Part shown: in pieces, positions 42,947-62,295 of the stretch | Layout: the number at the start of each line of letters is the position of its first letter | How positions within the stretch are numbered: position 1 is the stretch's first letter | Origin: an uncultured Alphaproteobacteria bacterium | GTDB lineage: Bacteria; Pseudomonadota; Alphaproteobacteria; UBA6615 | Direction: 5' to 3' | NCBI GenBank assembly: GCA_943787745.1 | Contig: CALSNJ010000002.1 | Location: forward strand, 694,125 to 758,124 | DNA length: 64,000 nucleotides | Notes under the pieces: model-generated | The model's database searches: none | Told to the model about the DNA's origin: nothing | The model's input: the letters and a program-made list of their open reading frames with translations, nothing else | Made by a program: the position numbers and the translations under genes

Positions 42947-43564
42947 CTATGCCAGCGGGATCATGATGTGTTCGGCAAAGCCCGGGCGCTCGGAGAGCCG
43001 GTCGTACCATTTGCGAATGTTTGGACGATCCGGCCGCTCGATGTCCATCGCATACCAGCGATAGATCACGCCGCCGATGGGAATATCCCCCATGGTGAAC
43101 TGGTCACCTGCCACAAAATCGCGTCCCTCAAGGAAGTGATCGAGCACGGCCGTGATTTCGCCAGCCGATTTGACGCTGCGATCGATCAGATCGCGGTCCT
43201 GTTTTTCCAGTGGCGTCCGGATGAGCTGATGGAATACCGGCCGCAAGGCCGGCCAGAAGGTGGCCGTCTGCCAATCCATCCAGCGGTCCGCATCCGCACG
43301 AATGTGCGGATCGTCCGGCCACAGAGTTCCGCGGCCATGCTTTTCTGCGAGATAGCGCAGGCAGGCGTTGGACTCCCATAAGATAAACCCATCATCATCA
43401 ATGGTGGGGACAAGGCGGTTCGGGTTCATCGCCAGATATTCATCGGTAAACCCAAACGCACCCGCCATATCGGGGCGCTCAAAGGCCACGCCCATCTCGA
43501 CGCAGCCCCAGAGAAGCTTCTGGACATTCGACGACGTGTGTCGCCCCCAAATTGTAAGTGCCAT
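42947..43564 (-). CDS. glutathione S-transferase
   Basis: 205 residues. The N-terminal thioredoxin-like domain begins TIWGRHTSSNVQKLLW with Ser in the position used by Ser-type GSTs, followed by NPNRLVPTIDDDGFILWESNACLRYLAEK for glutathione. The C-terminal helical domain has GDQFTMGDIPIG. Not part of an obvious operon; convergent with the cytochrome c gene. Confidence 0.9.
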   Translation of the reverse strand: MALTIWGRHTSSNVQKLLWGCVEMGVAFERPDMAGAFGFTDEYLAMNPNRLVPTIDDDGFILWESNACLRYLAEKHGRGTLWPDDPHIRADADRWMDWQTATFWPALRPVFHQLIRTPLEKQDRDLIDRSVKSAGEITAVLDHFLEGRDFVAGDQFTMGDIPIGGVIYRWYAMDIERPDRPNIRKWYDRLSERPGFAEHIMIPLA

Positions 43565-43586
43565 AGCGCCCCTCTTGTCTGACGGA

Positions 43587-44051
43587 TCAGTCGATCACGT
43601 TCCACTTTTCGACGACATTACTACCAGCTTCGCGGAACACTTTGGAGACCGGGCAGTAAATCGGCAGCATTTCTTCGACTTCAGCGAGCTGTTCGGGTGT
43701 CGCGTCGGTTTTCACATTGATCGTGATGGTGATGTTGGGGAACGGCACCGAAATCGGCTCGGCGAGAATAACACCCCGGCGATCGAATTCGACATCACAC
43801 TCAATGGTCTGAATCTCGAAGTTGAGCTTCTTGTGATGCGCGATCCGCGTGGCAACATTGTTGGTGCAACCAACCAGGGCTGCCATCATCGTTTCGGTGG
43901 GTGACGCACCGACATTGGTGCCATCACGCTCAAGCGGCTCATCTGTAATGACTTTGACGTCACGGACACTGATATCCGTCCGCGAATGAGAGACCGCTTC
44001 GCCAACCATCGTGTATTTGGCGCTTTTCACCTGAATTTTTGCATCTGCCAT
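43587..44051 (-). CDS. OsmC-family peroxide reductase-like protein
   Basis: 154 residues. The two redox cysteines are C62 (ALVGCTNNVA) and C133 (LPIYCPVSK), and the fold markers GASPTETMMAAL are present. OsmC-type proteins reduce organic hydroperoxides. Start ATG at 44051 follows GAGGAAATCTC-like sequence; a longer frame upstream is not family-like. Divergent from the coxM2 gene. Confidence 0.88.
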   Translation of the reverse strand: MADAKIQVKSAKYTMVGEAVSHSRTDISVRDVKVITDEPLERDGTNVGASPTETMMAALVGCTNNVATRIAHHKKLNFEIQTIECDVEFDRRGVILAEPISVPFPNITITINVKTDATPEQLAEVEEMLPIYCPVSKVFREAGSNVVEKWNVID

Positions 44052-44209
44052 GAGATTTCCTCGAAAATTGGTTGAAATATTTGCCGTTAACATAGGCATC
44101 ACGTGCGCGTTCGCATAGACTTGCCCATAGCGAGTATTTACAAAACATATGTTCCGGAACGACACGAAGTCCGGACGTTGAACCAAAATGGTTATGAGGG
44201 AGAAACGCA

Positions 44210-45064
44210 TTGAAACCCGCACCATTTGCGTATGTCCGCGCCGAGACACTTGATCAGGTTTTTGACCTGCTCGACGAGTACGGTGACGAAGCAAAAATTC
44301 TCGCCGGAGGCCAAAGCCTCATGGCAACGCTCAATATGCGTCTGTCGACACCCGAAGTGCTGATCGATATCAATCACCTTGAGGGGCTGTCCGACATCTC
44401 TTCAGATGGCGACGTGTTGCGTATTGGCGCCCTCGCGCGTCACTCAGATGTACTTGAGTCAGAGCATGTTCAAAAACATGCACCCCTGATCGCGAAAACC
44501 ATGCCCCATGTAGCGCATCAGGCGATCCGCAACCGCGGAACCTTTGGTGGCTCTGTTGCCTTTGCGGACCCGGCTGCCGAACTTCCGGCTGTGACCCGTG
44601 CACTTGGTGCAATCTTCGTTCTGCAGGGCCGAGACGGACAACGTAAGGTCGCGGCGGATGATTTCTTTCAGGGTTTGTTTGAGACGGACCTCAAAGAGAA
44701 TGAACTCCTTGTCGGGGCAGAAATTCCGGCCATCAAGGATGGCGAGCGAACGGCATTTATGGAACTGGCGCGCCGCCATGGCGATTACGCCATCGTGGGC
44801 CTCGCGGTTCAGGGCAGGCTAGAGGGCGACACCTTTGCCGATATGCGGCTGGGATTCTTTGGTGCAGGTGATCAACCCATACTTGCCAAGTCGGCGATTG
44901 CAGCACTCAACGGACAGCCCAACAACGAAGGCACGATCAAGAACGCGCAGGACGCACTTGATGCCGATCTCGACCCGATGCCCGACCTGAACGGTCCGGC
45001 CGAAATGAAAATGCATCTCGCACGCGTGCTAACCAAGCGCGCACTCGCAGAACTCGCAGCTTAG
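44210..45064 (+). CDS. molybdenum hydroxylase FAD subunit, second copy
   Basis: 284 residues of the CoxM family. FAD motifs AGGQSLM and RNRGTFGGSVAFADPAAE are intact; a CO_deh_flav_C domain follows. TTG start at 44210 behind GAGGGAGAAACGCA. It belongs to a different sublineage from the first CoxM (AGGQSL vs AGGMTL). It precedes the 2Fe-2S subunit gene by 17 bases. No Mo subunit gene is nearby in either direction, so the partner must be encoded elsewhere or be shared. Confidence 0.92.
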   Translation: MKPAPFAYVRAETLDQVFDLLDEYGDEAKILAGGQSLMATLNMRLSTPEVLIDINHLEGLSDISSDGDVLRIGALARHSDVLESEHVQKHAPLIAKTMPHVAHQAIRNRGTFGGSVAFADPAAELPAVTRALGAIFVLQGRDGQRKVAADDFFQGLFETDLKENELLVGAEIPAIKDGERTAFMELARRHGDYAIVGLAVQGRLEGDTFADMRLGFFGAGDQPILAKSAIAALNGQPNNEGTIKNAQDALDADLDPMPDLNGPAEMKMHLARVLTKRALAELAA

Positions 45065-45081
45065 CGCGCGGAGAAGAACAG

Positions 45082-45558
45082 ATGGACCAGAACGTCGATA
45101 TTACAATGAAGGTGAATGGCCAGACGGTCAGCCGCCGCATTCCAGCCCGCACCAATTTGGTGGATTTCGTGCGCTACGACATGGAGCTCACTGGTAGCCA
45201 TGTCGGCTGCGAGCACGGTGTGTGTGGTGCCTGCACCATCCGCGTTGACGGCGCTATCGTGCGCGGTTGCCTCATGCTGGCCGCGCAGGCCGAGGGCGCT
45301 GAGGTTGAAACCATCGAAGGCCTTTCAGATGCCGGCGAAATCGCCGATCTGCAGAAAGCCTTCCATGAGCGCAATGCTGTTCAATGTGGCTTCTGCACGC
45401 CGGGCATGCTGCTGACCGCGCAGGAACTCCTGACAAAGAACTCTTCGCCATCACGCGAGGAAATCCGGGAGTTCATCTCCGGAAACTACTGCCGCTGCAC
45501 GGGTTATCAGGCCATCGTCGACGCCATTGACCGGGTCGCCGAAGAACGCCGCGGCTAA
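45082..45558 (+). CDS. molybdenum hydroxylase 2Fe-2S subunit, second copy
   Basis: 158 residues. All eight cluster cysteines are present: C43, C48, C51 and C63 in the N-terminal cluster, QCGFCTPG and CRCTGY in the C-terminal cluster. Co-transcribed with the preceding FAD subunit, then a terminator. It is the second 2Fe-2S subunit in the window. The M-S order is that of form I CO dehydrogenase operons, but here no L gene follows. Confidence 0.93.
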   Translation: MDQNVDITMKVNGQTVSRRIPARTNLVDFVRYDMELTGSHVGCEHGVCGACTIRVDGAIVRGCLMLAAQAEGAEVETIEGLSDAGEIADLQKAFHERNAVQCGFCTPGMLLTAQELLTKNSSPSREEIREFISGNYCRCTGYQAIVDAIDRVAEERRG

Positions 45559-45620: not shown

Positions 45621-46160
45621 CTAGTCCGCAGCCGCCTGAATAATATTGCCGTCCACATCGAGCTTAAGCCCTGTTGCGCGCGCCCGGTCCAGAATTTCTT
45701 CCGGCCAGTCGACCCGTGTGGCTTCGGTGCCGCCAACAATCCCGATCATCAACGCGTGCTCATTGCCTGCATTGTAGAATCCCCGCATGACCTTCGGGGG
45801 CACCGAGACGCAATCCATCGGCCCCAGGATCACCTCTTCACGCGTATCAACTTCGTTCCAGTAAATTGACCATACGCCTGTCAACGGAATGAACACCTCT
45901 ACCGTCGGGTGGGAATGCAGAGAGGCACCTTTTCCGGGTTCACATCCGATATAGGCCATGTGAAAGCCCTCAACATCGGTAATGGCCACCGGATTGTCAG
46001 GGTCCTCAGACACCCCTTCTCCGATAATCGAATACAGATCACGCTCATATTCAGGTAGCCGGGTGTCGACGAACATCTGAGGATTCGGCTTTTGGTCTTT
46101 CCAGAGGGCCACGCGCTTCATCATGTCGTCTCGGGACAGGATTTTGATATCGTCGCTCAC
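45621..46160 (-). CDS. cupin-domain protein
   Basis: 179 residues. The cupin core has a metal-binding HSHPTVEVF segment in the first motif and a second beta-barrel motif around VPPKVMRGFYNAGNEHA. The GTG at 46160 is chosen because GGGGGAG lies 4-10 bases upstream; an ATG at 46190 would add about ten non-family residues. Convergent with the coxMS pair and after the TRAP operon terminator. Cupins may be isomerases, dioxygenases or decarboxylases; this cannot be chosen here. Confidence 0.8.
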   Translation of the reverse strand: MSDDIKILSRDDMMKRVALWKDQKPNPQMFVDTRLPEYERDLYSIIGEGVSEDPDNPVAITDVEGFHMAYIGCEPGKGASLHSHPTVEVFIPLTGVWSIYWNEVDTREEVILGPMDCVSVPPKVMRGFYNAGNEHALMIGIVGGTEATRVDWPEEILDRARATGLKLDVDGNIIQAAAD

Positions 46161-46197
46161 GGTTGGTTCTCCCCCAGTTTGCTTTCGCATCTGTTTC

Positions 46198-46235
46198 AAA
46201 AAAAACGGCGGCGCCTCCTCAAGAAGACGCCGCCG
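46198..46235 (-). terminator. terminator of second TRAP operon
   Basis: Stem CGGCGGCG/CGCCGCCG (46206-46213 with 46228-46235) followed on the minus strand by eight T residues. It lies between the TRAP large permease stop and the cupin start. Confidence 0.85.
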
Positions 46236-46263
46236 CAATTCTAGACTGAATTTTCGCTTCAGT

Positions 46264-47610
46264 TTATCTGAAACTGAAACCAATCTGATGATTGAAGATG
46301 ATATCAGAGCTCCAGGTGATCGGCTCTGTCGCCAACTCTGGCAGCAGCCAGACAAGTGCCAGAACAATCAGGATCAGGATCCAGTATGGGATCGACCCGG
46401 CGAAGATCTCGGATAGCTGGACCGATCTATCCGGCACAGCGCCCTTCACCGCGTAGACCAGCAATCCGACCGGCGGTGTCAGCAGTCCCGCTTCAATCGC
46501 CAGAATGCCCATGATCGCAAACTGATACTCGTTGTAACCAAAGTTCTGCGCAATCGGCCAGAAGATCGGAACGGTCAGCAGAATGATCGAACCGGAATCA
46601 AGCAGTGTGCCAAGCACAAGCCAGATCACAATCATGATCAGAACCGCCACATTGGGATCGATACCAGCACCACCAACCGTATCTGTGATCAGGTTAACCA
46701 CGCCCCCGGTTGTCAGAAGACGCGAGTACATCTGAGCTGTGAGAAGCAGGAACAGAATTGGCGCAATGACCTTACCGGAGTCGATAATCGCTTCGCGAAT
46801 ACCGTCCCAGCGCACGCCCTTGATAAGCGCAAGCACCAACCCGAACAGCGCACCCAGCGCCGCGGCTTCAGATGGCGTTGCAAGACCGACCCAGATGCTA
46901 CCAAGCACAGCGACGATCAAGAAGATCACGCCACCACCACTAATCATCTCCTGTCGGGTCAGCGTTTCATTCGACAGGTCGACCGCAGGGGCCAGGTGAG
47001 GCTTCAGGATCGCGAAACCAGAACAATAGAACGCCATCAGGAGGGACAAAATCAGACCTGGCAGAATGCCTGCCAGGAACAGGAAGCCGATCGAGATTTC
47101 CGTCACGATGCCCCAGATAATCAGGAGCACACTTGGCGGGATCAGCATGCCGAGGCACGCACTGCCGGCAACCGAACCAAGAGCAAACCTGCGGCTGTAA
47201 CCGGCCTTCATCATTTCCGGATATGCCAGACGCGAGAACGCGGCCGCCGATGCCAGACTCGTACCGGTCACCGCAGCAAAGACCGCGTTACCGGCCACGG
47301 TCGCCACAGCCAGACGTCCCGGAATACGCTTCAGGCCGAAGTTCATAACCCGATAGAGGTCTGCCGCAGATCCCGATCTACTGACGAACTCTCCCATCAG
47401 CACGAACAACGGAATGACCGCGAACACAAAATCCCGCAGTGCGAAGAAGGATGTGCTGCCCACCTGCCCTGCTGCCAGTTCGTAAGAACCGAACATGAGC
47501 CATGTGCCGACAAGGGCACAGACGCCAAGTGAGATGCCGATATGAATTCCGCCGATAACGGCAAAAATCAAAACAACCAGCATCAAAAGTACGGCTGAAG
47601 TTGGATCCAT
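46264..47610 (-). CDS. TRAP transporter large permease DctM (second system)
   Basis: 448 residues, full DctM topology with family blocks FAVIPLFVLMGEFVSRSG, GTSLASAAAFSRLAYPEM and GSACLGMLIPPSVLLIIWGIVTEISIGFLF. It follows the small permease with a 69-base spacer and is terminated after its stop. Divergent from the triplicated binding-protein genes, with which it presumably works. Confidence 0.93.
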   Translation of the reverse strand: MDPTSAVLLMLVVLIFAVIGGIHIGISLGVCALVGTWLMFGSYELAAGQVGSTSFFALRDFVFAVIPLFVLMGEFVSRSGSAADLYRVMNFGLKRIPGRLAVATVAGNAVFAAVTGTSLASAAAFSRLAYPEMMKAGYSRRFALGSVAGSACLGMLIPPSVLLIIWGIVTEISIGFLFLAGILPGLILSLLMAFYCSGFAILKPHLAPAVDLSNETLTRQEMISGGGVIFLIVAVLGSIWVGLATPSEAAALGALFGLVLALIKGVRWDGIREAIIDSGKVIAPILFLLLTAQMYSRLLTTGGVVNLITDTVGGAGIDPNVAVLIMIVIWLVLGTLLDSGSIILLTVPIFWPIAQNFGYNEYQFAIMGILAIEAGLLTPPVGLLVYAVKGAVPDRSVQLSEIFAGSIPYWILILIVLALVWLLPELATEPITWSSDIIFNHQIGFSFR

Positions 47611-47679
47611 TTTTTACGCCCCCTTGTCCCGCGCGCTTACAAGCGCCAATGCGCTGCGCAGCGGGAATTCATTAAATTG

Positions 47680-48216
47680 CTATATCTGAGAACCGGATAC
47701 AGGTTCGTATTTGCCTTCTTCCTCTTCCGTGATGGCCTGACCGCCAAACAGGAAGTGGACCAAAAGCACGAGATAGGTGAATGCCGAAACCAATGCGAAC
47801 ACGAAGATGAGTGTCCGAACCGGGTAGACCGGAACGCGGATAGAGCCTTCGCCCTCACGCTCGTCGACTTCCCAGCCGATGAGCATGTCCTCATAACCGC
47901 CGAAGGCGATGGAAAGGAAGAACCAGACACCCAGAACCGCAACGGTGACATCAATCGCGCGCCGCCAGAATTCGGAGACGTTCTGATAGATCACCGTCGT
48001 CCGCAAATGTGCGCCACGATAAATGGTGTAGGGCATCTGGAGGAAAAGAATGGAAACCATCGAATTGGCAACAATCTCAATCGTTCCATCGAAGGGATGG
48101 TTAAAGAACGTCCGCCCCATGATGTCGTAGAGAATTAAAAACGCGAGAGCCAACGCCCAGAACGCGGCGATCGTACTCAGTACGCGCGTGACAGTATAAA
48201 CAACCCGATCGACCAT
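47680..48216 (-). CDS. TRAP transporter small permease DctQ (second system)
   Basis: 178 residues with four membrane segments and the DctQ pattern LIYDIMGRTFFNHPFDGTIEIVANSMV. First gene of the minus-strand permease operon. It shares the 438-base upstream region with the plus-strand binding-protein genes. Confidence 0.92.
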   Translation of the reverse strand: MVDRVVYTVTRVLSTIAAFWALALAFLILYDIMGRTFFNHPFDGTIEIVANSMVSILFLQMPYTIYRGAHLRTTVIYQNVSEFWRRAIDVTVAVLGVWFFLSIAFGGYEDMLIGWEVDEREGEGSIRVPVYPVRTLIFVFALVSAFTYLVLLVHFLFGGQAITEEEEGKYEPVSGSQI

Positions 48217-48654
48217 AAATGCCTCCGTATGACATTGCCGCTGGTCACAACGGCAATGTTTGAACCTAGAATCACGCCCTCCCGCGTGGATTCGGATGGG
48301 AAGTTAGCAGACTGTAAGCCTTTGTAAAATCGGGGATCACATAGTTTTTCTTTTTTTTATCACTTCACGGCCATGTTTCGATCAAAGCCCCGTGATGAAC
48401 TTGTCGCAATGACAGGAAACGCTTACGAACATCAGAATTGTACAAGTCAAATCGAGTGCACGCATAAGGCGTACCAAAGGCTGGAATTCTCATGACTTTT
48501 AATTCAATCAATCGTTTGAATGTCTCTAGCTTTTGCCTGCGATTCCTGCTTTTCTTGGGAGAGTCATAAGAAGGACCGCATGGGATTCAGACGGTTCGGC
48601 TCTTTCGTCGTTTTACGTTAATTGCAAATACTTCATGTTTTAGGGAGACAATCA
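48217..48654. promoter_or_regulatory. 438-base divergent region between TRAP permease and binding protein genes
   Basis: No gene seen. It must carry the outward promoters of the dctQM operon and the first binding-protein gene. It includes a poly-T stretch (TTTTTCTTTTTTTT, about 48343-48359) and an AT-rich zone near 48495-48530. The last part ends in AGGGAGACAATCA before the GTG start. No regulator gene is adjacent, unlike the first TRAP system. Confidence 0.5.
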
Positions 48655-49737
48655 GTGACAGCACGTAAACACCTGGTAAGCGTTGCCGCAGCCGGCCTCA
48701 TGGCCGTCGCAGCGACCGCGACCACCACCACGGCATTTGCCGACAACTTCAACCTGCGTATCGCTGCCGGCCATCCGGCTGCACCGCTCGCCACCGTGAA
48801 CCAGCTCAACAAGACCCTGGTTCCCAATGTGACCAAGCGCGTCGCGGCTGAGACAGACCACACGGTCCGTTTCATCGAAGGCTACGGCGGCACGATCGCC
48901 AACCTCTTCGAGGTTCTCGAATCCACCCAGAAGGGCATCGTCGACATTGGCGCCATGTGCTCCTGCTTCGAGCCGACCAAGCTGTTCGTCCATAACCTGA
49001 ACTACTTCACCCCGTTCATCTCGGGTGATCCCAAGATCATGGGTCCGACCACACGTCAGATCCACGAGGAGTTCGATTACTTCAGCACGATCTTCGATCA
49101 GTACGCACAGACCTATGTCGGTGGCGGTGCATTCGATGATTATGGCCTCGGAACAAAGTTCCCGTGGACCAAGATGGAAGAGCTCAAGGGTGTGAAGATC
49201 GGTGCCGCTGGCCCGAACCTTCCCTGGCTCGACTTTGCTGGTGCCTCCAAGGTCCAGACCAACCTGAACGAAGTCTACAATGCACTGCAGTCCGGTGTGT
49301 TCTCGGGTGTCGTGATTTTCCCGGCGCCGTATTTCGGCTTCAAGTTCGGTGAAGTGGCCAAGTACTACACGACCATGGGCTGGGGTTCGGTCCTCGCCTA
49401 CCCGGTCACCGTCAACAACAAGACCTGGGCCAAGCTGCCTGATGACGTGAAGAAGATCTTCCTCGAAGAAATGCAGGTCTATCAGACAGCCGTCGAAGAC
49501 GAGGGCGTGGCCAAGTACACCTCCGCTCTTGAGAACCTCAAGAAGCAGGGCGTCACCGTTCGTGACCTCGGCTCCGAAGAGCGTGGCAAGATGGCTCTCG
49601 CCATTGAGCCGTGGGTCAACGAGAAGGCAGCCGAATACGAAGCTCAGGGTTTCCCGGGCAAGGCCACCTTCAATCGTCTGATCGAACTCGCCAAAGAGAA
49701 CGGCGCCAAGCCGGTTCACGAGTACACAATCAAGTAG
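48655..49737 (+). CDS. TRAP solute-binding protein, copy 1
   Basis: 360 residues. Signal peptide up to about TTTTAFA, then a DctP-fold domain with FIEGYGGTIANLFEVLEST, FDDYGLGTKFPW and GVKIGAAGPNLPWLDFAG. GTG at 48655 after AGGGAGACAATCA; a TTG start at 48622 gives an odd leader without signal character. This is the first of three tandem copies. It is very close in sequence to copy 2, including the signal peptide, so the two arose recently. It presumably serves the divergent TRAP permease. Confidence 0.93.
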   Translation: MTARKHLVSVAAAGLMAVAATATTTTAFADNFNLRIAAGHPAAPLATVNQLNKTLVPNVTKRVAAETDHTVRFIEGYGGTIANLFEVLESTQKGIVDIGAMCSCFEPTKLFVHNLNYFTPFISGDPKIMGPTTRQIHEEFDYFSTIFDQYAQTYVGGGAFDDYGLGTKFPWTKMEELKGVKIGAAGPNLPWLDFAGASKVQTNLNEVYNALQSGVFSGVVIFPAPYFGFKFGEVAKYYTTMGWGSVLAYPVTVNNKTWAKLPDDVKKIFLEEMQVYQTAVEDEGVAKYTSALENLKKQGVTVRDLGSEERGKMALAIEPWVNEKAAEYEAQGFPGKATFNRLIELAKENGAKPVHEYTIK

Positions 49738-49760
49738 CTTCGGCTCCTTTGAAACGGAAA

Positions 49761-49789
49761 AGGGCGGTCTTCGGACCGCCCTTTTTTTT
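49761..49789 (+). terminator. terminator after binding protein copy 1
   Basis: Perfect stem AGGGCGGTC/GACCGCCCT with TTCG loop and eight T residues. A near-identical sequence follows copy 2, and a related one copy 3. Confidence 0.9.
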
Positions 49790-49944
49790 GTGCCCAAAAC
49801 CCCTCATAGGCGGAAGATGGAAAATTGGCTTTACCTTCGCAGGTGTTTCGCTCACAAGGGGGGCGTGCGTAGACATTCCTTTGCGCATTAGGAAAGTGGT
49901 CGACTTGAGGGTCGACCGCTGTTGTTTAATTGGGAGAACAATCC

Positions 49945-51030
49945 GTGACAGCACGTAAACACCTGGTGAGCGTTGCCGCAGCCGGCCTCATGGCCGTCGC
50001 AGCGACCGCGACCACCACCACAGCATTTGCCGACAACTTCAACCTGCGTATCGCTGCTGGCCATCCGGCTGCACCGCTCGCCACTGTGAACCAGCTCCAA
50101 CAAGACCCTGGTTCCCAATGTGACCAAGCGCGTCGCGGCTGAGACAGACCACACGGTCCGTTTCATCGAAGGCTACGGCGGCACGATCGCCAACCTCTTC
50201 GAGGTTCTCGAATCCACCCAGAAGGGCATCGTCGACATTGGCGCCATGTGCTCCTGCTTCGAGCCGACCAAGCTGTTCGTCCACAACCTGAACTACTTCA
50301 CCCCGTTCATCTCGGGTGATCCCAAGATCATGGGTCCGACCACACGTCAGATCCACGAAGAGTTCGACTATTTCAGCACGGTCTTCGATCAGTACGCGCA
50401 GACCTATGTCGGTGGCGGTGCATTCGATGATTATGGCTCTGGGCACCACATTCCCGTGGACCAAGATGGAAGAACTCAAGGGTGTCAAGAGTCGGTGCGG
50501 CCGGTCCGAACCTTCCCTGGCTCGACTATGCTGGTGCCTCCAAGGTCCAGACCAACCTGAACGAAGTCTACAACGCACTGCAGTCCGGTGTGTTCGACGG
50601 CATGGTGATCTTCCCGGCGCCGTATTACGGCTTCAAGTTCGGTGAAGTGGCCAAGTACTACACGACCATGGGCTGGGGTTCGGTCCTCGCCTACCCGGTC
50701 ACCGTCAACAACAAGACCTGGGCCAAGCTGCCTGATGACGTGAAGAAGATCTTCCTGGAAGAAATGCAGGTTTATCAGACAGCCGTCGAAGACGAAGGTG
50801 TCGAGAAGTACACCTCCGCGCTGGAGAACCTCAAGAAGCAGGGCGTCACCGTTCGTGACCTCGGCTCCGAAGAGCGTGGCAAGATGGCTCTCGCCATTGA
50901 GCCGTGGGTCAACGAGAAGGCAGCCGAATACGAAGCTCAGGGTTACCCGGGCAAGGCCACCTTCAATCGTCTGATGGAACTCGCCAAAGAGAACGGCGCA
51001 ACGCCGGTTCACGAGTACACAATCAAGTAG
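49945..51030 (+). pseudogene. broken TRAP solute-binding protein, copy 2
   Basis: Near-duplicate of copy 1 from its GTG to the terminator. Compared with copy 1 it has one extra base at three places: a C near 50097 (CTCAAC becomes CTCCAAC), one in the altered stretch 50437-50450 (TATGGC...TTCCCGTGG is one base longer), and a G near 50491 (AAGATCGG becomes AAGAGTCGG). The net shift is +3, so the last third is again in frame and reads normally to the stop at 51030. Translation from GTG would stop after 50142. GTG at 49945 with GGGAGAACAATCC is kept. Either a real pseudogene or a consensus error. Confidence 0.85.
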
Positions 51031-51053
51031 CTTCGGCTCCTTTGAAACGGAAA

Positions 51054-51080
51054 AGGGCGGTCTTCGGGCCGCCCTTTTTT
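51054..51080 (+). terminator. terminator after binding protein copy 2
   Basis: Stem AGGGCGGTC/GGCCGCCCT (one G-T pair), loop TTCG, then TTTTTT. The sequence before it matches the region after copy 1, so the terminator was duplicated with the gene. Confidence 0.88.
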
Positions 51081-51242
51081 ATGCCCTGTTCCAAATACAC
51101 GAATGTTGATCAAACAAATTTGTCTTCACACGGCCACATTTCCGTTTCACACTTCCCCTATTGCGTCTCGAGTACGTCCCAAAACAATCACTAAGCCCGG
51201 CCTGTCCGGCCGACAATGATAACGTTACAGGGAGTAAATTCG

Positions 51243-52328
51243 GTGAAGCTCAATTCAACAATCACAAAATCTGTCTGGTCCGTCGGGGTCATTGCCTCGG
51301 GGTTGGCCTTTTCCCAATCGTCAGCCATCGCTGATAATTTCAACCTGCGCATTGCGGCCGGTCATCCTTCTGCGCCTCTTGCCAGTGTCAACCAGGCCAA
51401 CAAAACCTTCGTGCCCAATGTCACCAAACGCGTGGCCGCAGAAACCGACCACACGGTCCGGTTCATTGAGGGTTATGGCGGTACGATCGCCAACCTCTTC
51501 GAGGTTCTCGAATCTACCCAGAAAGGCATCGTCGATATCGGCCTGATGTGCTCCTGCTTCGAGCCAACCAAGCTGTTCGTCCACAACCTGAACTATTTCA
51601 ACCCGTTCATCTCGGGTGATCCCAAGATCATGGGGCCGACCACGCGTCAGGTTCACAAGGAGTTCGACTATTTCAGCACGATCTTCGATCAGTATAACCA
51701 GACCTATATCGCAAACGGTGCGTTCGATGATTATGGCCTCGGCACCAAGTTCCCATGGACCAAGATGGAAGAGCTCAAGGGTGTGAAGATCGGTGCCGCG
51801 GGCCCGAACCTTCCCTGGCTCGACTTTGCTGGCGCTTCCAAGGTCCAGACCAACCTGAATGAAGTCTACAACGCTCTGCAGTCCGGCGTGTATTCGGGTG
51901 TCGTGATTTTCCCGGCGCCGTATTTTGGCTTCAAGTTCGGCGAAGTCGCCAAGTACTACACGACCATGGGCTGGGGCTCGGTTGTTGCCTATCCGATGAC
52001 AGTCAACAACGACACCTGGGCCAAGCTGCCGGATGATGTGAAGAAGATCATCATGGAAGAGACCGGTGTCTACAACGTTGCCGTTGAGGACGAAGGCGTT
52101 CGCAAGTTCACCTCTGCCCTTGAGAACCTCAAGAAGCAGGGTGTGACCGTGCGCGACCTCGGCAATGACGAGCGCAACAAGATGGCCGTTGCCATTGAGC
52201 CGTGGGTCCAGGAAAAGGCGGCTGAGTACGAAGCTCAGGGTTACCCGGGCAAGGCCACATTCAACCGGCTTTATGAGCTGGCAAAGCAGAACGGCGCCAA
52301 GCCCGTTCATGACTACTCCATCAAGTAG
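51243..52328 (+). CDS. TRAP solute-binding protein, copy 3
   Basis: 361 residues, intact. Signal peptide MKLNSTITKSVWSVGVIASGLAFSQSSAIA differs from copies 1 and 2, whereas the mature protein is clearly homologous throughout (FIEGYGGTIANLFEVLEST, FDDYGLGTKFPW). GTG at 51243 is preferred because CAGGGAG lies just upstream. It differs from copy 1 in several ligand-site-adjacent regions, so it may recognise a different ligand. Followed by a terminator. Confidence 0.92.
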   Translation: MKLNSTITKSVWSVGVIASGLAFSQSSAIADNFNLRIAAGHPSAPLASVNQANKTFVPNVTKRVAAETDHTVRFIEGYGGTIANLFEVLESTQKGIVDIGLMCSCFEPTKLFVHNLNYFNPFISGDPKIMGPTTRQVHKEFDYFSTIFDQYNQTYIANGAFDDYGLGTKFPWTKMEELKGVKIGAAGPNLPWLDFAGASKVQTNLNEVYNALQSGVYSGVVIFPAPYFGFKFGEVAKYYTTMGWGSVVAYPMTVNNDTWAKLPDDVKKIIMEETGVYNVAVEDEGVRKFTSALENLKKQGVTVRDLGNDERNKMAVAIEPWVQEKAAEYEAQGYPGKATFNRLYELAKQNGAKPVHDYSIK

Positions 52329-52350
52329 TCCACGCCTCTTTGAAATGGAA

Positions 52351-52379
52351 AAGGGCGGCCTCACGGCCGCCCTTTTTTT
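52351..52379 (+). terminator. terminator after binding protein copy 3
   Basis: Ten-base stem AAGGGCGGCC/GGCCGCCCTT, loop TCAC, then a T-run. It lies between the convergent copy 3 and HisD-family genes. Confidence 0.88.
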
Positions 52380-52398
52380 ATTCCTAAATCAGGAAAAT

Positions 52399-53712
52399 CT
52401 ATTCGGCGGCGTCCGTCGCACCGATGCCGATGTTGCGACCCGCGTAACGGCGCAGGCGTAGATCGGCCTGTTCCTTGTGGCCCCAGAACCGTTCGATTTC
52501 GCACAGGCGCGAGCAGTAATCGCCGATCACCGCACTGCCCTCTTCGGTCACCTGCTGATAGGTGCAGGTCTTGAGGAACTTGCCGACCCACAGACCGCCT
52601 GTGTAGCGGGCCGCGCCCTTGGTCGGAAGCGTATGGTTGGTTCCGATCACCTTGTCGCCATAAGCAACGTTGGTTTCCGGCCCGATGAACAGGGCGCCAA
52701 AGTTGGTCATGTTGTCGAGATACCAACGGGGATCTTCAGTCAGGATTTCCACATGCTCATAGGCAATGCGGTCGGCTTCATCGCGCATCTCATCGCGGGT
52801 ATCGCAAAGGATGATCTGGCCGTAGTCCTTCCAGGCGACCGAAGCCACATCGGCTGTCGGCAAAATCTTCAACTGGCGCTCGATTTCAGCCGGAATGGCT
52901 TCGGCCAGTTCACGTGAATCCGTGATGACTGCGGCCGGAGAGTTCGGGCCGTGTTCGGCCTGTCCAAGCAGATCGACAACGACCATCTCGACATCGGCGG
53001 TATGATCGGCAACGACGAGAACTTCTGTCGGGCCTGCGAACAGATCGATACCAACCTTGCCATAGAGCTGGCGCTTGGCTTCGGCCACATAGGCATTGCC
53101 CGGGCCAACCAGCATGACACAGGGATCGATGGTCTCCGTGCCGAGCGCCATGGCCGCGACAGCCTGTACGCCGCCCATGCAATAGATTTCATCGGCACCC
53201 GCCAGATGCATCGCGGCGATCGTCGCCGCGTGCGGTCCGCCTTCGTTCGGCGGCGTGCAGGCGATCACCCGCGGCACACCAGCCACCTTGGCGGTCACGA
53301 TCGACATATGGGCCGAGGCGACCATCGGGTAGCGTCCGCCCGGGACATAGCAACCAACGCTTTCCACCGGAATATTCTTGTGGCCGAGCGTGACGCCGGG
53401 AAGCGTTTCGACCTCGACATCCTTCATCGAATCCCGCTGGACCTGCGCAAAGTTACGAACCTGCGTCTGCGCAAACTTGATGTCCTCAATGGTCTGCTCG
53501 GGCAGGGAATCCATCAATTCCTTGATCTGGGCATCGGACAGACGAAAGCTTTCCGGCGACCATTTGTCGAACTTCTCCGACAACTCGCGCACGGCGGCAT
53601 CGCCACGGCTCTTCACATCATTGAGGATACCTTCAACGATTTCGCGAACCTTGGCATCGGCTTCGTCGGTCGCTTCGGAGTCCATTCCCTCTTTCAGGAT
53701 TTCGATGGCCAT
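52399..53712 (-). CDS. HisD-family dehydrogenase (sulfopropanediol-dehydrogenase-like)
   Basis: 437 residues of the histidinol dehydrogenase family with all key positions kept: Q251 and H254 ([10 protein letters not shown]), E319-H320 (AYEHVEI), D353 (YGDKV), H360 (TNHTLPT) and H412 (WGHKEQ). The block [19 protein letters not shown] is like the catabolic HpsN type that oxidises diols such as (R)-2,3-dihydroxypropane-1-sulfonate. No other histidine biosynthesis gene is near, so a catabolic NAD- and zinc-dependent alcohol oxidation is inferred. Convergent with the TRAP binding protein. Confidence 0.87.
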
Positions 53713-53758
53713 TTCACAGTTCCTCGGTTGGCTGAATTTGCAGTTTCTTAAAACACGA

Positions 53759-53789
53759 CGGGCGGCACCGGCAACCCCGGCACCGCCCG
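53759..53789 (-). terminator. terminator of cyclase-1 gene
   Basis: Outer stem CGGGCGG/CCGCCCG with an additional GC-rich inner stem, followed on the minus strand by TCGTGTTTT. It lies just after the cyclase stop and before the HisD-family start. Confidence 0.7.
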
Positions 53790-53816
53790 AAAATCGTAGA
53801 TATTTTGACGCAGGCG

Positions 53817-54800
53817 CTACTTGATCGCCTGCGGGTTGATCGGCGAGCCAACACCACGGGTGATCGGCAGCGGCGGGGCGACAAACATGAACTCATACAC
53901 ACCGTCATTGGCACAATCATTGGCGAGGTCCTTAAGATAGAAAATCTCGCCCATGGTGATGCCGATCTGCGGAATCACGATCCAGTGCCAGGGCTGGAAC
54001 ACATCATCCGTCTCGTTTGGAATGACTTCGCAGCCCCAAGTATCTGCACAGATCGCCGCGATCTCCATATCGTGCATCCAGTCGCAGGTGTGGAACGACA
54101 CGCCCGGGGCTTCACCGCCCGCATAGCCGCCCCATTCGCCGTTCTTCAGGCAGCGCTCCATATGACCTGTGCGGTAGATCACGAAATCACCACGCTTGAT
54201 CTCAACGCCTTGCGCCTTGGCGCAGGCGTCCAGATCTTCCGCGTCAATTGCCGTGCCATCGTCGAGGGAATCGACGCCCGCCCAACGCGCGACGTCGAGC
54301 AGCACGCCACGCCCGACCATCTTGTTGCGCATCTTGTGGATCGCGTTCTTTTCAGCACCGTTGGAACCAACCAACGTGGCGTCATAGCCATTCCACATCT
54401 TGTCGTTGTTGAAGACATGGCCGAGGGCGTCCCACTGGGTGCCACACTGCAGTGGCAACGAAATCGAATCATCGGCGTACTGGCTCGGATATTTCTTGCC
54501 CGGAACCTTCTGCTTGCCCTGAACGGCGTCCGTGCCCGTTGCGAGCATGGTGTGGATCGGATTCCAGCGACCACCAAACAAACCATTCTGTGGACCCTCA
54601 CTGTCAAAGTTAAGACCGAGGGCAAACACCTCGCCGCGTTTCACGAGGCCTGCCGCTGCCTTGCGCTCTTCGTCGCCGGCGTAATTGATCGTGCCCCATT
54701 CGTCATCGGGGCCCCATTTGCCCCAGTTCTTATTGCGTTCGGACTTCTCTTTGATCATTTCCATATCGAAACGGTACTGCGGGTCGTCAAACTTATGCAT
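53817..54800 (-). CDS. cyclase-family protein 1 (kynurenine formamidase fold)
   Basis: 327 residues of the PF04199-type 'cyclase' family. The usual metal motif HGTHxDxxxH reads C119-G-T-Q-W-D-A-L-G-H128, so the two first histidines are Cys/Gln. [19 protein letters not shown] and [12 protein letters not shown] are other family blocks. Start at 54800 after GGGGGAGACCTGAG. It is a paralogue of the next gene. It could hydrolyse amides or esters, but the altered ligands leave this open. Confidence 0.83.
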
Positions 54801-54878
54801 CTCAGGTCTCCCCCGTTTGAATTTGATGGCAGGTGTGTCCCTGCCAATTTTCTTATAATCAAACTCTAACAAAACAAA

Positions 54879-54907
54879 GGGGCCACGCTCCATCGGAACG
54901 TGGCCCC
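54879..54907 (-). terminator. terminator of cyclase-2 gene
   Basis: Perfect 9-base stem GGGGCCACG/CGTGGCCCC with an 11-base loop, then TTTGTTTTG on the minus strand. It separates the two cyclase genes into their own transcripts. Confidence 0.8.
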
Positions 54908-54934
54908 AAAACTAAAAATATTTCGTGATTTTGC

Positions 54935-55948
54935 TTACTTGATCGCCTGAGGATTGATCGGCGATCCGGTTCCGCGAGTGATAACGAGCGGCGGTGCCGA
55001 GAGGAAGAACTCGTAAACACCGTCTTCGGCGCAATCTTCAACGAGTTCACGCAGATACCAGATTTCACCATGGACGATGCCGATATGCGGGATCGTCACC
55101 CAGTGCCAGGGCTGATTGATGCCCGGAACGCTGCGGTTCGGGCGCACTTCGATGCCCCAGGTATCAGAGCAAATGCCCGCAATCTCTTTCTTGTGGATCC
55201 AGTCGGCCGTCTCAAAGGCGAGACCCGGCGCATCGCCACCGGCGTAGCCACCCCAGTCACCCTTATCCAGACAATCGGCCATCTGACCGGTGTTGAAGAT
55301 CACAAAGTCACCACGACGCACTTCCACGCCCTGCTTCTTGGCGGTTTTCTCCAAATCCGCAATGGTGATTTCCTCACCGTCTGCCAGGCGCTTCTTGCCC
55401 TTCATCTTGGCTACGTCGAGCAGAACACCACGGCCGACCATCTTGTCGGCGAAATGCTCAATGCCGTTCTTGTGGGCGCCACGGACGTCGACGAGAGTCG
55501 CGTCATAACCGTTCCACATCTTGTCATCGGTGAAGACATGAGCAAGCGCATCCCACTGGGTCGCACACTGGGTCGGCAGATTGATCGCGTCATCGGCATA
55601 GCGCATGCCAGCAAGCGGCTCCTGAATACCCTGGACAGCGTCCGTACCGGTTGCGAGCATCTGGTGCATCGGGTTCCAGCGACCACCGAACAGACCGTTC
55701 TGCGGACCGTTCTCATCAAGGTTCAGACCAAGGCGGAAGACCTTGCCCTTTTTCACCAGTTTGGCCGCATCTGCGATCATTTCCGGCGTGATGTAGTTGA
55801 GCACACCAAGCTGGTCGTCCTTGCCCCACTTGCCCCAGTTGTTCAACTGACGGCATTTGCGCATCACGTCTGCTTTGGTCAGCAGCTTTTTCTTTTTGCT
55901 GGGTGCGCGTTTTGCCGCTGGCTTTTTCGCGGTTGCTTTCTTCGCCAT
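54935..55948 (-). CDS. cyclase-family protein 2, with Lys/Ala-rich N-terminus
   Basis: 337 residues, paralogous to the adjacent cyclase. The motif corresponding to HGTHxDxxxH reads C128-A-T-Q-W-D-A-L-A-H137. Residues 1-23 are a basic Lys/Ala tail (MAKKATAKKPAAKRAPSKKKK) absent from the paralogue. [19 protein letters not shown] and FVIFNTGQMADCL are shared. ATG at 55948 after AGGGAATAATTC. It ends in the same INPQAIK as its neighbour, so the pair came from a tandem duplication. Confidence 0.85.
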   Translation of the reverse strand: MAKKATAKKPAAKRAPSKKKKLLTKADVMRKCRQLNNWGKWGKDDQLGVLNYITPEMIADAAKLVKKGKVFRLGLNLDENGPQNGLFGGRWNPMHQMLATGTDAVQGIQEPLAGMRYADDAINLPTQCATQWDALAHVFTDDKMWNGYDATLVDVRGAHKNGIEHFADKMVGRGVLLDVAKMKGKKRLADGEEITIADLEKTAKKQGVEVRRGDFVIFNTGQMADCLDKGDWGGYAGGDAPGLAFETADWIHKKEIAGICSDTWGIEVRPNRSVPGINQPWHWVTIPHIGIVHGEIWYLRELVEDCAEDGVYEFFLSAPPLVITRGTGSPINPQAIK

Positions 55949-56096
55949 GAATTATTCCCTCGACTCTATTGATCGTAAATTGAAACTCGATTGCCGGTCT
56001 TACAACCGGTCATGGCGTCGGTTATGGTCGCACCAAATTCGGATTGCAAGATTGCATTCACGGGATTTTTCGACAACGTGATGTGGAGTTACAGAA

Positions 56097-56876
56097 ATGA
56101 GTGTTTCGGAAGCAAACAACCTGACGACCCCTTCCCTGCGCCTTGATGGTCTGGTCGCGGTGGCGAGCGGCGCGGGACGCGGTATTGGTCGCGGTGTGGC
56201 GATCTCACTCGCCGAAGCCGGTGCAGAAGTTGTGCTGGTCAGCCGCACCCAGTCAGAGCTGGAATCTGTTGCGGACGAGATCAACGCCGCTGGCGGCAAG
56301 GCCACGCCTGTCGTCTGTGATGTGACCGATCTGGCGCAAGTCACCGAGAAAATCGAAAGCCTCGAACGGATCGATATTCTGTTCAACAATGCTGGCGGCA
56401 ATCGCCCCGAACCCTTCATCAATGTTTCCGAAGAAAATCTCGATTTCATCCTCGACCTGAACGTTAAATCGATGTTCATTGTGGCCCAGGCCGCTGCCCG
56501 GCGGATGCTTGCGGGTGGTCGCGGCGGTGCCATGATCCACATGTCATCCCAGATGGGTCATGTGGGCTCCCCCAACCGCACCGTTTACTGCGCCACCAAA
56601 CATGCCGTCGAAGGCATGAGCAAGGCCATCGCGGCGGAATTGGCACCCGAAAACATTCGCAGCAATTGCATCGGCCCAACGTTTCTGGAAACCCCGATGA
56701 CCGCGCCGATGTTTGAAAATCCGGAATTTCGGCAATTCGTGATGGACCGCATCCCGATGGGTCGTCTGGGAAAGATTTCGGACGTGACAGGTTCGGTGGT
56801 GTTCCTTGCTTCACCGGCCTCCGAACTCATCACGGGCGCAAGCCTGACCATCGATGGTGGCTGGACGGTCGTTTAG
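56097..56876 (+). CDS. SDR family oxidoreductase
   Basis: 259 residues. GAGRGIGRGVA cofactor loop, NNAGGNRPE, catalytic serine (MSSQMG) and YCATK are intact, and LTIDGGW closes it. Glucose/ribitol-type SDR. Divergent from the cyclases and convergent with the RibF-like gene, overlapping its end by 4 bases. Probably oxidises an alcohol in the same catabolic set, which is an inference from position. Confidence 0.88.
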   Translation: MSVSEANNLTTPSLRLDGLVAVASGAGRGIGRGVAISLAEAGAEVVLVSRTQSELESVADEINAAGGKATPVVCDVTDLAQVTEKIESLERIDILFNNAGGNRPEPFINVSEENLDFILDLNVKSMFIVAQAAARRMLAGGRGGAMIHMSSQMGHVGSPNRTVYCATKHAVEGMSKAIAAELAPENIRSNCIGPTFLETPMTAPMFENPEFRQFVMDRIPMGRLGKISDVTGSVVFLASPASELITGASLTIDGGWTVV

Positions 56877-57895
56877 TCGGTTTCCGAAGGGTCCGCGTCC
56901 CAGCGGTTGCCGAGATAGTCGACAAACGCAACGCGGACCGGTTTGCCGAGCAGTTTCACAAAATCGGTTTCCGGCAAGTCCAGCAACGACACAAATGCAT
57001 CCGTGCTGCCGACCTGCCCACGTAATGTGTGCCAGTTCGCCTTGTCCGATCCGGCGCGCGCGAGGGTAACCGTGTACCAGCCTGGCGCGGGCATCTGATA
57101 AGACGCCAGAGAAACCCCCGGCAACTCCGCACCATTTGGATCGGCCAGTTGTTCCAGTGTGCCCTCGATTTCCCAACACCCACCAAGAATACGAGCTGCG
57201 GCACGCGGACGACCCGAGGCGATCAGGGTGCGCAAACGGGTCGATCCCGCCAGGTCACCGTCGACCGACACCGCGGCAACCACCGTGACCCCAAAACCAT
57301 TCTCCGCCCCCATTTTTCGCAGCAGGTCCGGATCCCCCGCGCGTTTGCGGCCAAACCGAAAGTCATGCCCCACCACCACGTGCTGGACCTTCATGCCCTC
57401 GATGAGAACCGAACGGACGAAGTCTTCGGGTTCCAGGCTTGCGAATTCACGATCAAAGGATTGCGCAAGAAGTACATCCACGCCCAATTCGGCCATGGTC
57501 CTCGCGCGTGCTTCGGGCGTCGAGAGCAGAAAAGGCTGGCTGTCGGGCTCAAACACCGCACGCGGATGGGGCTCGAATGTCAAAACGCCCAGCGGCGCCT
57601 CAAGTTCATCGGCCTTCTCTGCGGCCGCATCAATGAGAGCCTGATGGCCCAGATGGACTCCATCGAACTTGCCGATCGCCACAACAGCGCCACGACAGCG
57701 TCCAGGCACCGAGGAATATTCGCGGAACATGCTGAATTCGCGCGGGAAGTTGTCCGGCGCGTCAAACCACACGCCCATTAGATCAAGAAACTGGGGCGCA
57801 TCTGTCTCGACTTGATCAACACGCGTCTTCGCGAACTGGGAGTCTGCATCCAGTTCGAACAGCTGAAAATCCAAATCGTTATCGTTTGCAATCAC
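56873..57895 (-). CDS. RibF-like FAD synthetase domain protein
   Basis: 340 residues. The FMN adenylyltransferase half is good: GKFDGVHLGH (75-84), TFEPHPRAVF and GHDFRFGRKRAGD (176-188), STRLR (218-222). The riboflavin kinase half (from about 235) lacks the GFPTAN-type block and other kinase residues. So it may only make FAD from FMN, or be non-canonical. GTG start at 57895 gives about 55 extra acidic residues; ATG at 57730 (M56) matches the usual RibF start, so the true start is open. Flavin supply could serve the FAD-dependent hydroxylases in this window, but that is inference. Confidence 0.78.
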   Translation of the reverse strand: MIANDNDLDFQLFELDADSQFAKTRVDQVETDAPQFLDLMGVWFDAPDNFPREFSMFREYSSVPGRCRGAVVAIGKFDGVHLGHQALIDAAAEKADELEAPLGVLTFEPHPRAVFEPDSQPFLLSTPEARARTMAELGVDVLLAQSFDREFASLEPEDFVRSVLIEGMKVQHVVVGHDFRFGRKRAGDPDLLRKMGAENGFGVTVVAAVSVDGDLAGSTRLRTLIASGRPRAAARILGGCWEIEGTLEQLADPNGAELPGVSLASYQMPAPGWYTVTLARAGSDKANWHTLRGQVGSTDAFVSLLDLPETDFVKLLGKPVRVAFVDYLGNRWDADPSETD

Positions 57896-58083
57896 AATAT
57901 TATCCGTTTTTACAATACCTTATGAGCTCACCCTAAACTGTTTGGGTCATTTGAGAAATGCGACAAACACATTTAAAGCGGGCCGATCACACTTATGTAG
58001 GAGTTGTTTCAACATCGCGCTCGGATCGTTACAATGCGCGCTTATAAGGACAAACAATTAAAGTCCAATTAGGAGGCCCGAGA

Positions 58084-58821
58084 ATGGCAGAGCCAGCACG
58101 TGGGGAAACCTACGCTTATCCGCGTTTCAAAATGAGCAACTACGAGCTCGGTTATTTTCCAGGACCAAAGGCAGGTGAAGAGGTCGATTACGACTACACC
58201 CTGACCGACCTGGACGGGAACGAAGTGTCCCTCGCCGACTATAAAGGCAAATGGCTGGTTATCGAATCTGGCAGCCTGACATGCCCGATGTACGTCAAGA
58301 ACGTGAAACCCTATGCCAAGCTGAAGGAGAAGTATCCCGATGTTGAATGGCTGGTGGTCTATGTCCGCGAGGCCCATCCCGGCGAAAAAGCCAAACAGGC
58401 TGAAAATATCGAAGACAAGATCGCCTTCGCGAAGCGCAACCGCGATGACTACAACGAAGAACGTAAAATCATCGTCGATGACGTGGCCGGCAAATGGCAT
58501 CACGACTGGGGCCTATTGCCCAACACGGTCTATGTGATCAACCCGGAGGGCAAGGTGATCTACCGTGCCGACTGGTCCTTTGCGCACCTCGTCGAGAGGG
58601 CTTTGGAGAACCGCGACACCATCAATACGGATGAGCATGTCGCGATCCTGGGCGCTTCACCTTTCATTACGATCCCCGTGACACTCAAAGGCGGATGGAT
58701 CGCGCTGTATGACATCCTGATTATTTTTCCCAAGGTCTATTACATGCATTTCAAGCTGGATATTCAGACCTGGTGGGCCAAGCGCAAGGCACGCAAAGAA
58801 GCCGCGTCCGCTACGCAGTAA
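58084..58821 (+). CDS. deiodinase-like thioredoxin-fold protein
   Basis: 245 residues. The central domain resembles iodothyronine-deiodinase family proteins: LVIESGSLTCPMY with a single active cysteine C67 (TGC codon, not UGA) and VVYVREAH (91-98), followed by PNTVYVINPEGKV. No CXXC. A hydrophobic patch near 205-222 may associate with membranes; the C-terminus is basic. Bacterial members are redoxin-like with unknown substrates. ATG at 58084 after AGGAGGCCCGAGA. Confidence 0.8.
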   Translation: MAEPARGETYAYPRFKMSNYELGYFPGPKAGEEVDYDYTLTDLDGNEVSLADYKGKWLVIESGSLTCPMYVKNVKPYAKLKEKYPDVEWLVVYVREAHPGEKAKQAENIEDKIAFAKRNRDDYNEERKIIVDDVAGKWHHDWGLLPNTVYVINPEGKVIYRADWSFAHLVERALENRDTINTDEHVAILGASPFITIPVTLKGGWIALYDILIIFPKVYYMHFKLDIQTWWAKRKARKEAASATQ

Positions 58822-58844
58822 AAAACTGCAGAAACCAAACAAAA

Positions 58845-58871
58845 AGGCCGGGCAATCGCCCGGCCTTTTTC
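58845..58871. terminator. bidirectional terminator
   Basis: Nine-base stem AGGCCGGGC/GCCCGGCCT, loop AATC, with A5 before and T5 after. It can stop both the convergent deiodinase-like gene and the minus-strand TetR gene. Confidence 0.9.
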
Positions 58872-58890
58872 GTTCTTGATACTGTACCGA

Positions 58891-59559
58891 CTATCTCGGC
58901 AAGACATCACGCCGGGTCACCGCCAAGGCACCATCAAGTGTCCGGTCAACCGCATCGATGATGAACGCATCCAAATCTGCCTCGGTCTTGGCCTGATAGA
59001 TATGCTTCCGCACGAAATAGTAAAAAACAGCGGCATGAATGTGCCAAGTCGCTTCGATTTCAAGTGTACTGACAGGAACCTCATCCAGCCCCGGTGCACC
59101 CGCAGCCTTCCGAACTTCTGTCACGATCGGAACCAGGAGCTGATCTTCCAGAAGCCCAATATAACGCCGGTTGATATCTTCACCGGCAAGGCCCGCAAAC
59201 ATGTAAATTCTGATCCATTCATAGGTCAGAACATCGCGCGCATAGATGCGGTAGAAATCGATCAGTCGATCGCGCAAATCGCGGCTTTGGTCCGAAATCA
59301 GATCCGTCCATTCGGGACGCCAGCGCCCCACAAAAACTTCCTCATAAACCCGATCAATCAGGTCCTGCTTGGTGGGGAAATACCGGTAGATGAGCGGCTG
59401 CGTTACGCCAAGCCGCTGCGCGAGTTCACGCGTCTGACCACCAAGCCCAACCTCCGCGAAGAACGCGATTGCGCCATCCACAATCAGCCGCTCCCGTTCT
59501 TCGGGGGAAAGCCTTTGGCGCGGTGCGGCATTAATGGGATTTTCCTTGAGCGCAACCAA
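58891..59559 (-). CDS. TetR-family regulator
   Basis: About 222 residues. The helix-turn-helix is in the first third (TRELAQRLGVTQPLIYRYFPTKQDLIDRVYEEVF), followed by a helical ligand domain. The longer frame to 59715 runs through the end of the upstream flavoprotein gene. TTG at 59559 is the best start, 2 bases beyond that gene's stop, but has no strong ribosome-binding site. It probably regulates the flavoprotein gene in front of it. Confidence 0.75.
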   Translation of the reverse strand: MVALKENPINAAPRQRLSPEERERLIVDGAIAFFAEVGLGGQTRELAQRLGVTQPLIYRYFPTKQDLIDRVYEEVFVGRWRPEWTDLISDQSRDLRDRLIDFYRIYARDVLTYEWIRIYMFAGLAGEDINRRYIGLLEDQLLVPIVTEVRKAAGAPGLDEVPVSTLEIEATWHIHAAVFYYFVRKHIYQAKTEADLDAFIIDAVDRTLDGALAVTRRDVLPR

Positions 59560-59560
59560 C

Positions 59561-60775
59561 CTAGAGAACCGCGTTGTCCGACCCCAGGCCCATGGCGATC
59601 TTGCCGAAGGTCGTGCCCGCAACATCCATGCTGAAGGCAATATGGGCACGTGCCGCGTGGATATCGCTAAAGGCGCGCGCCAGTGGGTTGCGGGTGTAGA
59701 TGCCACCGCCGCCACTGGCCTGATAGAGCTTGTTTACAGCTTCAACGCATAGTGTCGCGGTGAATGCGCCGTTCCGGCGGAACTTTGCCTTTGTTTCGAT
59801 GTCCGGAACCTCATTCCGCTCGGCGATCTGCATCGACAATTCACAATCCGCCCGCATCATCAGCCGCGCCGCGTCAATTGCGGCTCCCGCCTCTGCGACC
59901 TTGATCTGGATATTCTGAAGTTCTGAAATACGGGCACCGGTGTAGTTCGCAGTCCGCGCCTTCATGCCATCGATGTAGTTCTGGTATACGCCCTCTGCGA
60001 TCCCCAGCGGGGTCCCTGAAAGGACATAGGGAAACGGTGCAATGACCGGCACCTTGTAGAGCGCACCCGGATTGACATCACTGCCTGGCGTTGCGCCGCC
60101 TTTCACATCATTTGCCGAGACGGTCATGTGTTCGGGAATGAATATGTCCTCAGCAACTGCATCTTTTGAGCCCGTGCCCTTCAAGCCGGACGTAAACCAG
60201 GTGTCGATCACCTCATGCTCGGATTTGCGCATCAGGAACAGCCGCGCCTCCTTCTCCGGATGATCCGCGTCTTCCTCCACCATGCCGCCGAGCATGTTCC
60301 ATTCGCTGGGATCAATGCCCGAGCAGAACGGCCAGCGACCATTCAGGATATAGCCTCCATCCACGCGCTTGGCGCGACCCGCAGGGAAAATCACAGACGC
60401 ACAGATCAGCGTGTCTGCGGTCTCTCCATTCTTTCCCCAAACCTCATCCTGAGCCTCTTTCGGCCACATGCCGAGCATCCAGTGATGACTGGCCAGATTC
60501 GAAACGTTCCAGCCGCTCGAGGCACAGGCCCGGGAAATCATGGCCCCGGTGTCAACCAGCATGCCGAAATCCAACTCGTAGCCGCCAACGCGCTTGGGCT
60601 GGAGAATCTTGAACAGGCCCGCATCGAGAAAATCACGGACATTGTCTTCCGGCAGACGACGCTGTTCGGAAGCTTTTTCCGAACGTTCGGCAACAACCGG
60701 CAGAAGTTCCTCTGCCCGCGCCAGAACATCCTCACGGGTCACAGTGTTCGGTTCGATCTCAGCGACCTGGCTCAT
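59561..60775 (-). CDS. acyl-CoA dehydrogenase-like flavoprotein monooxygenase
   Basis: 404 residues of the acyl-CoA dehydrogenase fold, type 2/HpaH-C2/DszC branch: ASSGWNVSNLASHHWMLGMWP, SGLKGTGSKDAVAED, SGGGGIYTRNPLARAFSDIHAARAH. This branch uses FMNH2 or FADH2 with O2 to hydroxylate aromatics or organosulfur compounds rather than dehydrogenating acyl-CoA. No flavin reductase gene is nearby. Four-base proximity to the TetR gene suggests co-transcription. ATG at 60775. Confidence 0.85.
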   Translation of the reverse strand: MSQVAEIEPNTVTREDVLARAEELLPVVAERSEKASEQRRLPEDNVRDFLDAGLFKILQPKRVGGYELDFGMLVDTGAMISRACASSGWNVSNLASHHWMLGMWPKEAQDEVWGKNGETADTLICASVIFPAGRAKRVDGGYILNGRWPFCSGIDPSEWNMLGGMVEEDADHPEKEARLFLMRKSEHEVIDTWFTSGLKGTGSKDAVAEDIFIPEHMTVSANDVKGGATPGSDVNPGALYKVPVIAPFPYVLSGTPLGIAEGVYQNYIDGMKARTANYTGARISELQNIQIKVAEAGAAIDAARLMMRADCELSMQIAERNEVPDIETKAKFRRNGAFTATLCVEAVNKLYQASGGGGIYTRNPLARAFSDIHAARAHIAFSMDVAGTTFGKIAMGLGSDNAVL

Positions 60776-60887
60776 CTTTGCTCTCCCGAAGGGTCAGCGA
60801 GGTGCCAACCAGTTTCATTTATCAATCGATAAATAACAAACTTACCCGGCACCCGCAACAGTTATTTTTCGTTTGATAATTTACCAA

Positions 60888-62192: not shown

Positions 62193-62295
62193 TGACACCC
62201 CCTTGCGAACACTTTTTAGGCAGATATTATCGGCGCCCTAGCCTACCGGCGGCAAAACAAGAAATAAGATCGCACAAAAGCCGTATAGGGGGGAC

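Follow-up and report, generated by a model that had tools for sequence, protein, structure and literature searches.

Substrate-binding proteins of the DctP-type TRAP family usually carry an arginine (Arg) that anchors the ligand by holding its acid group, and this residue occurs in 96.8% of family members (PMC4646407). The use of several binding proteins by one permease has been documented for ABC transporters, and has been proposed for a TRAP system in the form of a non-cognate interaction (PMC12599236). In DHPS catabolic loci, the R-DHPS 3-dehydrogenase HpsN is distinguished by His126, which recognizes the sulfonate (PMC11382572). We examined a TRAP locus within a 64,000-nucleotide stretch of the genome of an uncultured marine alphaproteobacterium (the window). 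Its binding proteins resemble SiaP, TeaA, IseP, and the protein of PDB entry 4n6d in family match, predicted fold, and adjoining dctQ and dctM genes, but they have glycine (Gly) instead of the usual Arg, and three copies stand in tandem beside one permease. Shared-permease systems likewise have several binding proteins, whereas those found here are tandem paralogs next to the permease that they would share. We consider it fairly probable that the locus is a tandem array of variable copy number, in which binding-protein genes beside a single TRAP permease undergo birth-and-death evolution.

The tandem triplication described in an earlier note on this DNA was borne out by our analysis. Three DctP-type TRAP binding-protein genes (hereafter copies 1, 2, and 3) lie in tandem on the forward strand at positions 48655–52328 of the window, with a spacing of ~1,290 and ~1,300 bases. 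Copy 1 (48655–49737) is intact and has an open frame of 360 amino acids with a GTG start. Copy 2 (49945–51030), defined by open reading frames and by alignment with copies 1 and 3 and the two copies of a related genome (G001), carries three one-base insertions that break it in the assembled sequence. Copy 3 (51243–52328) is intact and, based on its open frame of 361 amino acids, PF03480 match, and tree position, is an older paralog of copy 1. Its likely start is the GTG at 51243, which was preferred to an ATG at 51216 because it is preceded by a sequence of Shine-Dalgarno type and has a counterpart in the second G001 copy, whose N-terminus is shared. To the left of the array, dctM and dctQ are encoded divergently on the reverse strand (46264–48216), the former for the large membrane subunit (46264–47610, PF06808, E 3e-69) and the latter for the small one (47680–48216, PF04290, E 1e-20). 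On the right are a gene of the HisD dehydrogenase family (52399–53712, reverse strand) and two cyclase-family genes.

An intrinsic terminator of its own had also been reported for each copy, and we found a 12-pair hairpin with a U tract downstream of all three stop codons on the forward strand (49758–49789, 51051–51080, and 52349–52379 for copies 1, 2, and 3, with fold z of -3.4, -2.4, and -4.4, respectively). These terminators were counted toward separate transcription of the copies; a promoter scan gave nothing better than chance, and an Rfam search of 46000–54000 returned no matches. The forward-strand spacer between copies 1 and 2 (49788–49944) occurs once in the genome and has no match in related loci. 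It contains an 11-pair inverted repeat (49895–49920) located just 5' of the ribosome-binding site of copy 2.

By family and predicted fold, the array proteins can be assigned confidently to the TRAP binding proteins. Copies 1 and 3 matched PF03480 with scores of 80.3 (E 2e-22) and 74.9 bits, respectively (cut-off 23.4), and copy 1 also matched the NCBIfam TRAP_S1 model above its cut-off. The predicted structural model has a pLDDT of 85.7, and every one of its top-ranking PDB matches is a TRAP binding protein (TM about 0.7–0.8). The adjacency to dctQ and dctM is that of a TRAP system, and the gene order is conserved in relatives. At the position of SiaP Arg147, all array copies have Gly, whereas four of the four solved relatives aligned have Arg. 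Since the anchoring Arg is found in most but not all members of the family, a Gly at this position is compatible with membership. The more distant paralogs aligned from the same genome (its other TRAP binding proteins, L005–L010) also lack the Arg, the residue in these and the array copies being Gly, Leu, Ser, or Tyr; judged from these alignments, there may be a sizeable Arg-less group of TRAP binding proteins awaiting a ligand.

Comparative analysis revealed that the position of the array between dctQM and the HisD-like gene is conserved across the family of this bacterium, with one (G006, G014, and G022), two (G001, G011, and G019), or three copies (G009) at the same locus; the count for G017, a lower bound, is at least two. 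Of 289 genomes sampled across the class, just three had a close match, and all of these belong to the same family. In the DNA tree, copies 1 and 2 group together (support 100/100), this pair groups with the first G001 copy (98/96), and copy 3 groups with the second G001 copy (99/98), indicating that the duplication separating copies 1 and 3 is older than the split from G001 and that the pair of copies 1 and 2 is younger. The signal peptides group in the same way as the tree. The signal peptide of copy 3, previously regarded as new, is shared with the second copy of G001 and hence is not new.

Copies 1 and 2 are 96% identical. That their similarity continues past the stop codon, as the earlier note had remarked, was confirmed: it extends from ~20 nt upstream of the start codon through the terminator. 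The two genes share exact tracts of 186 (the longest, starting at 48807/50098), 129, and 121 nt, which alternate with divergent stretches, and their differences are clustered compared with shuffles (p = 0.002 for the longest agreeing run, p = 0.00015 overall). The proposal that duplication or conversion was recent holds for the patches of long identity only, since divergent tracts lie between them and the overall dS of copies 1 and 2 is 0.14 (0.67 for copies 1 and 3, 0.49 for copy 1 and its G001 ortholog). Such patchy identity, as read from patterns under the assumption of even constraint along the gene, suggests gene conversion. At sites where copies 1 and 2 differ, matches to copy 2 and copy 1 number 24 and 12 for L068, 23 and 13 for L022, and 13 and 23 for the first G001 copy. 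With the L068 and L022 rows picked from many, these counts are suggestive of import of a divergent tract of copy 2 from another paralog clade.

Relative to copies 1 and 3 and both G001 copies, alignment located the three +1 insertions of copy 2 where the earlier note had placed them, at 50097, within 50437–50450 (a stretch that also has substitutions), and at 50491, all on the forward strand. It had further been stated that the insertions together restore the frame. Their sum is indeed +3, or one codon, but translation is not rescued: reading from the GTG start of copy 2, the frame entered after the first insertion meets a TGA stop at 50140–50142. Therefore, copy 2 as assembled gives a short fragment and no full-length protein, and its reading frame is disrupted in this sense. 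Programmed frameshifting was judged implausible, as it would take three separate shifts. We also rejected slipped-strand phase variation, as none of the insertion sites is a long simple repeat.

We then assigned changes to the branches of copies 1 and 2 with G001 and copy 3 as references. The branch of copy 2 has 14 synonymous and 13 nonsynonymous changes and that of copy 1 has 10 and 1, with five changes unassigned. Amino-acid changes are proportionally more frequent in copy 2 than in copy 1 (Fisher p = 0.03), and the nonsynonymous share of copy 2 is below the neutral expectation (p = 0.002, assuming that 75% of random changes are nonsynonymous). The dN/dS of copies 1 and 2 is 0.117, and every comparison among copies falls at about 0.06–0.12; the value near 1 that relaxed selection over the history of a pseudogene would give was not observed. 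By these estimates, purifying selection acted on copy 2 once it had separated from copy 1, and did so until lately. Eight of nine copy 2-specific residues tested occur in intact relatives, and several of the amino-acid changes on the copy 2 branch match a separate paralog clade. Considering the low dN/dS and the presence of its residues in intact relatives, copy 2 was working until recently or still is, and any loss is recent.

Whether the insertions exist in the living cell bears directly on the fate of copy 2. We lean slightly toward a very recent inactivation by small insertions. Besides copy 2, no coding frameshift was found in the 57,041 bases of the window that could be compared with the G001 contig or in ~40 kb elsewhere in the genome (~97 kb in total); the candidate breaks examined in the latter were in G001 where the frame of the window genome is open, or at gene starts or outside coding sequence. 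Thus, the breaks of copy 2 are a local matter, and generally poor genome quality is unsupported over this length. The G001 frames are broken at about 15995–17313 in L084 and 13258–16523 in L086, where those of the window genome are open, and from this comparison G001 itself probably carries indel errors. A rival possibility is plausible but somewhat less so: the insertions would be errors of the consensus or assembly within a nearly identical repeat, and the organism itself would carry copy 2 as a third intact gene. The exact tracts shared by copies 1 and 2 reach 186 nt, contigs of several related assemblies break off inside such binding-protein genes, and the remaining sequence of copy 2 looks selected. 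In addition, three insertions that are all +1 and sum to one codon, with no deletion, nonsense substitution, or other decay, form an odd pattern for a true pseudogene. Inactivation is favored over such errors by the otherwise clean assembly and by the location of two insertions where copy 2 is most distinct from copy 1, at which reads should be placed unambiguously.

An assembly artefact had also been considered by the earlier note. Although the three insertions may be artefactual, an origin of the whole array from collapsed or duplicated contig ends, which the high identity of copies 1 and 2 might bring to mind, was rejected as highly improbable: the spacers differ from each other, the one between copies 1 and 2 is single-copy in the genome, the tree places copy 3 as an old paralog whose ortholog is present in G001, and relatives have one to three intact copies in synteny. 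It is unlikely, too, that the copies are diverging in ligand, with copy 3, and copy 2 before its loss, having taken different specificities. The excess of amino-acid changes in copy 2, its matches to a separate paralog clade, and the 34 mature residues that differ between copies 1 and 3 would fit such a divergence; on the other hand, copy 2 is broken as read, and the low dN/dS throughout, together with a core strongly conserved in all array copies, argues against strong ligand divergence. As far as their sequences tell, copies 1 and 3 probably work with one and the same permease and bind ligands that are identical or closely similar. A more elaborate idea, which we regard as doubtful, is a TRAP system specific to this family and devoid of the usual Arg anchor. 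In it, a changing set of tandem binding proteins, reshuffled through gene conversion, would adjust the affinity or the range of ligands of a single permease, and copy 2 would be a silenced member of the set.

The HisD-like neighbor was compared with solved relatives, among which HpsN was the best (E 4e-123; 6e-81 for histidinol dehydrogenase). As in HpsN of DHPS loci, residues corresponding to Glu318, His319, and Asp352 are conserved (the numbering of the HpsN chain is offset by one from that of the paper, judged from Glu318 and His319). In contrast to HpsN, the equivalent of His126 is Met in the window protein and in all related loci checked, and the array binding proteins lack the Arg that holds a sulfonate or carboxylate. 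DHPS, which an HpsN-like neighbor would bring to mind as the ligand, is weakened as a candidate by both absences, and the ligand could thus be something other than a carboxylate or sulfonate. The HisD-like protein is possibly a member of a separate dehydrogenase group acting on another substrate, to judge by these residues. ORFs resembling E1/E2 of the acetoin dehydrogenase type, named by eye, lie between the array and the HisD-like gene in G023, G005, and G009 (L020 3410–6728, L017 1364–7005, and L059 10443–18073). The surroundings in the window (42950–45558 and 53817–62198) look catabolic and include molybdenum-hydroxylase subunits, two PF04199 cyclases, an HsaA-like monooxygenase, and a glycerate-kinase-like gene.

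In the birth-and-death scheme that we favor, a binding-protein array of variable copy number would serve the single, divergently encoded permease DctQM. Copies would be born by duplication, homogenized in patches (likely by gene conversion), and sometimes lost. As the comparisons show, an older duplication gave copies 1 and 3, both intact, and a younger one gave copies 1 and 2. Loss of copy 2 would leave two working binding proteins. The copies would be transcribed separately, so that additional ones would increase the amount of binding protein over that of permease. A search of the literature for TRAP binding-protein genes arrayed in tandem and showing gene conversion gave no hits, which carries little weight.

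The array is a product of ordinary gene duplication, likely conversion, and probable loss, and nothing beyond that; the triplication as such alters no general idea. It provides a readable case of the birth, partial homogenization, and probable loss of binding-protein genes, with intermediate stages in relatives. As the anchoring Arg is missing in this clade, the ligand is not guessable from the usual carboxylate rule, making a binding screen worthwhile.
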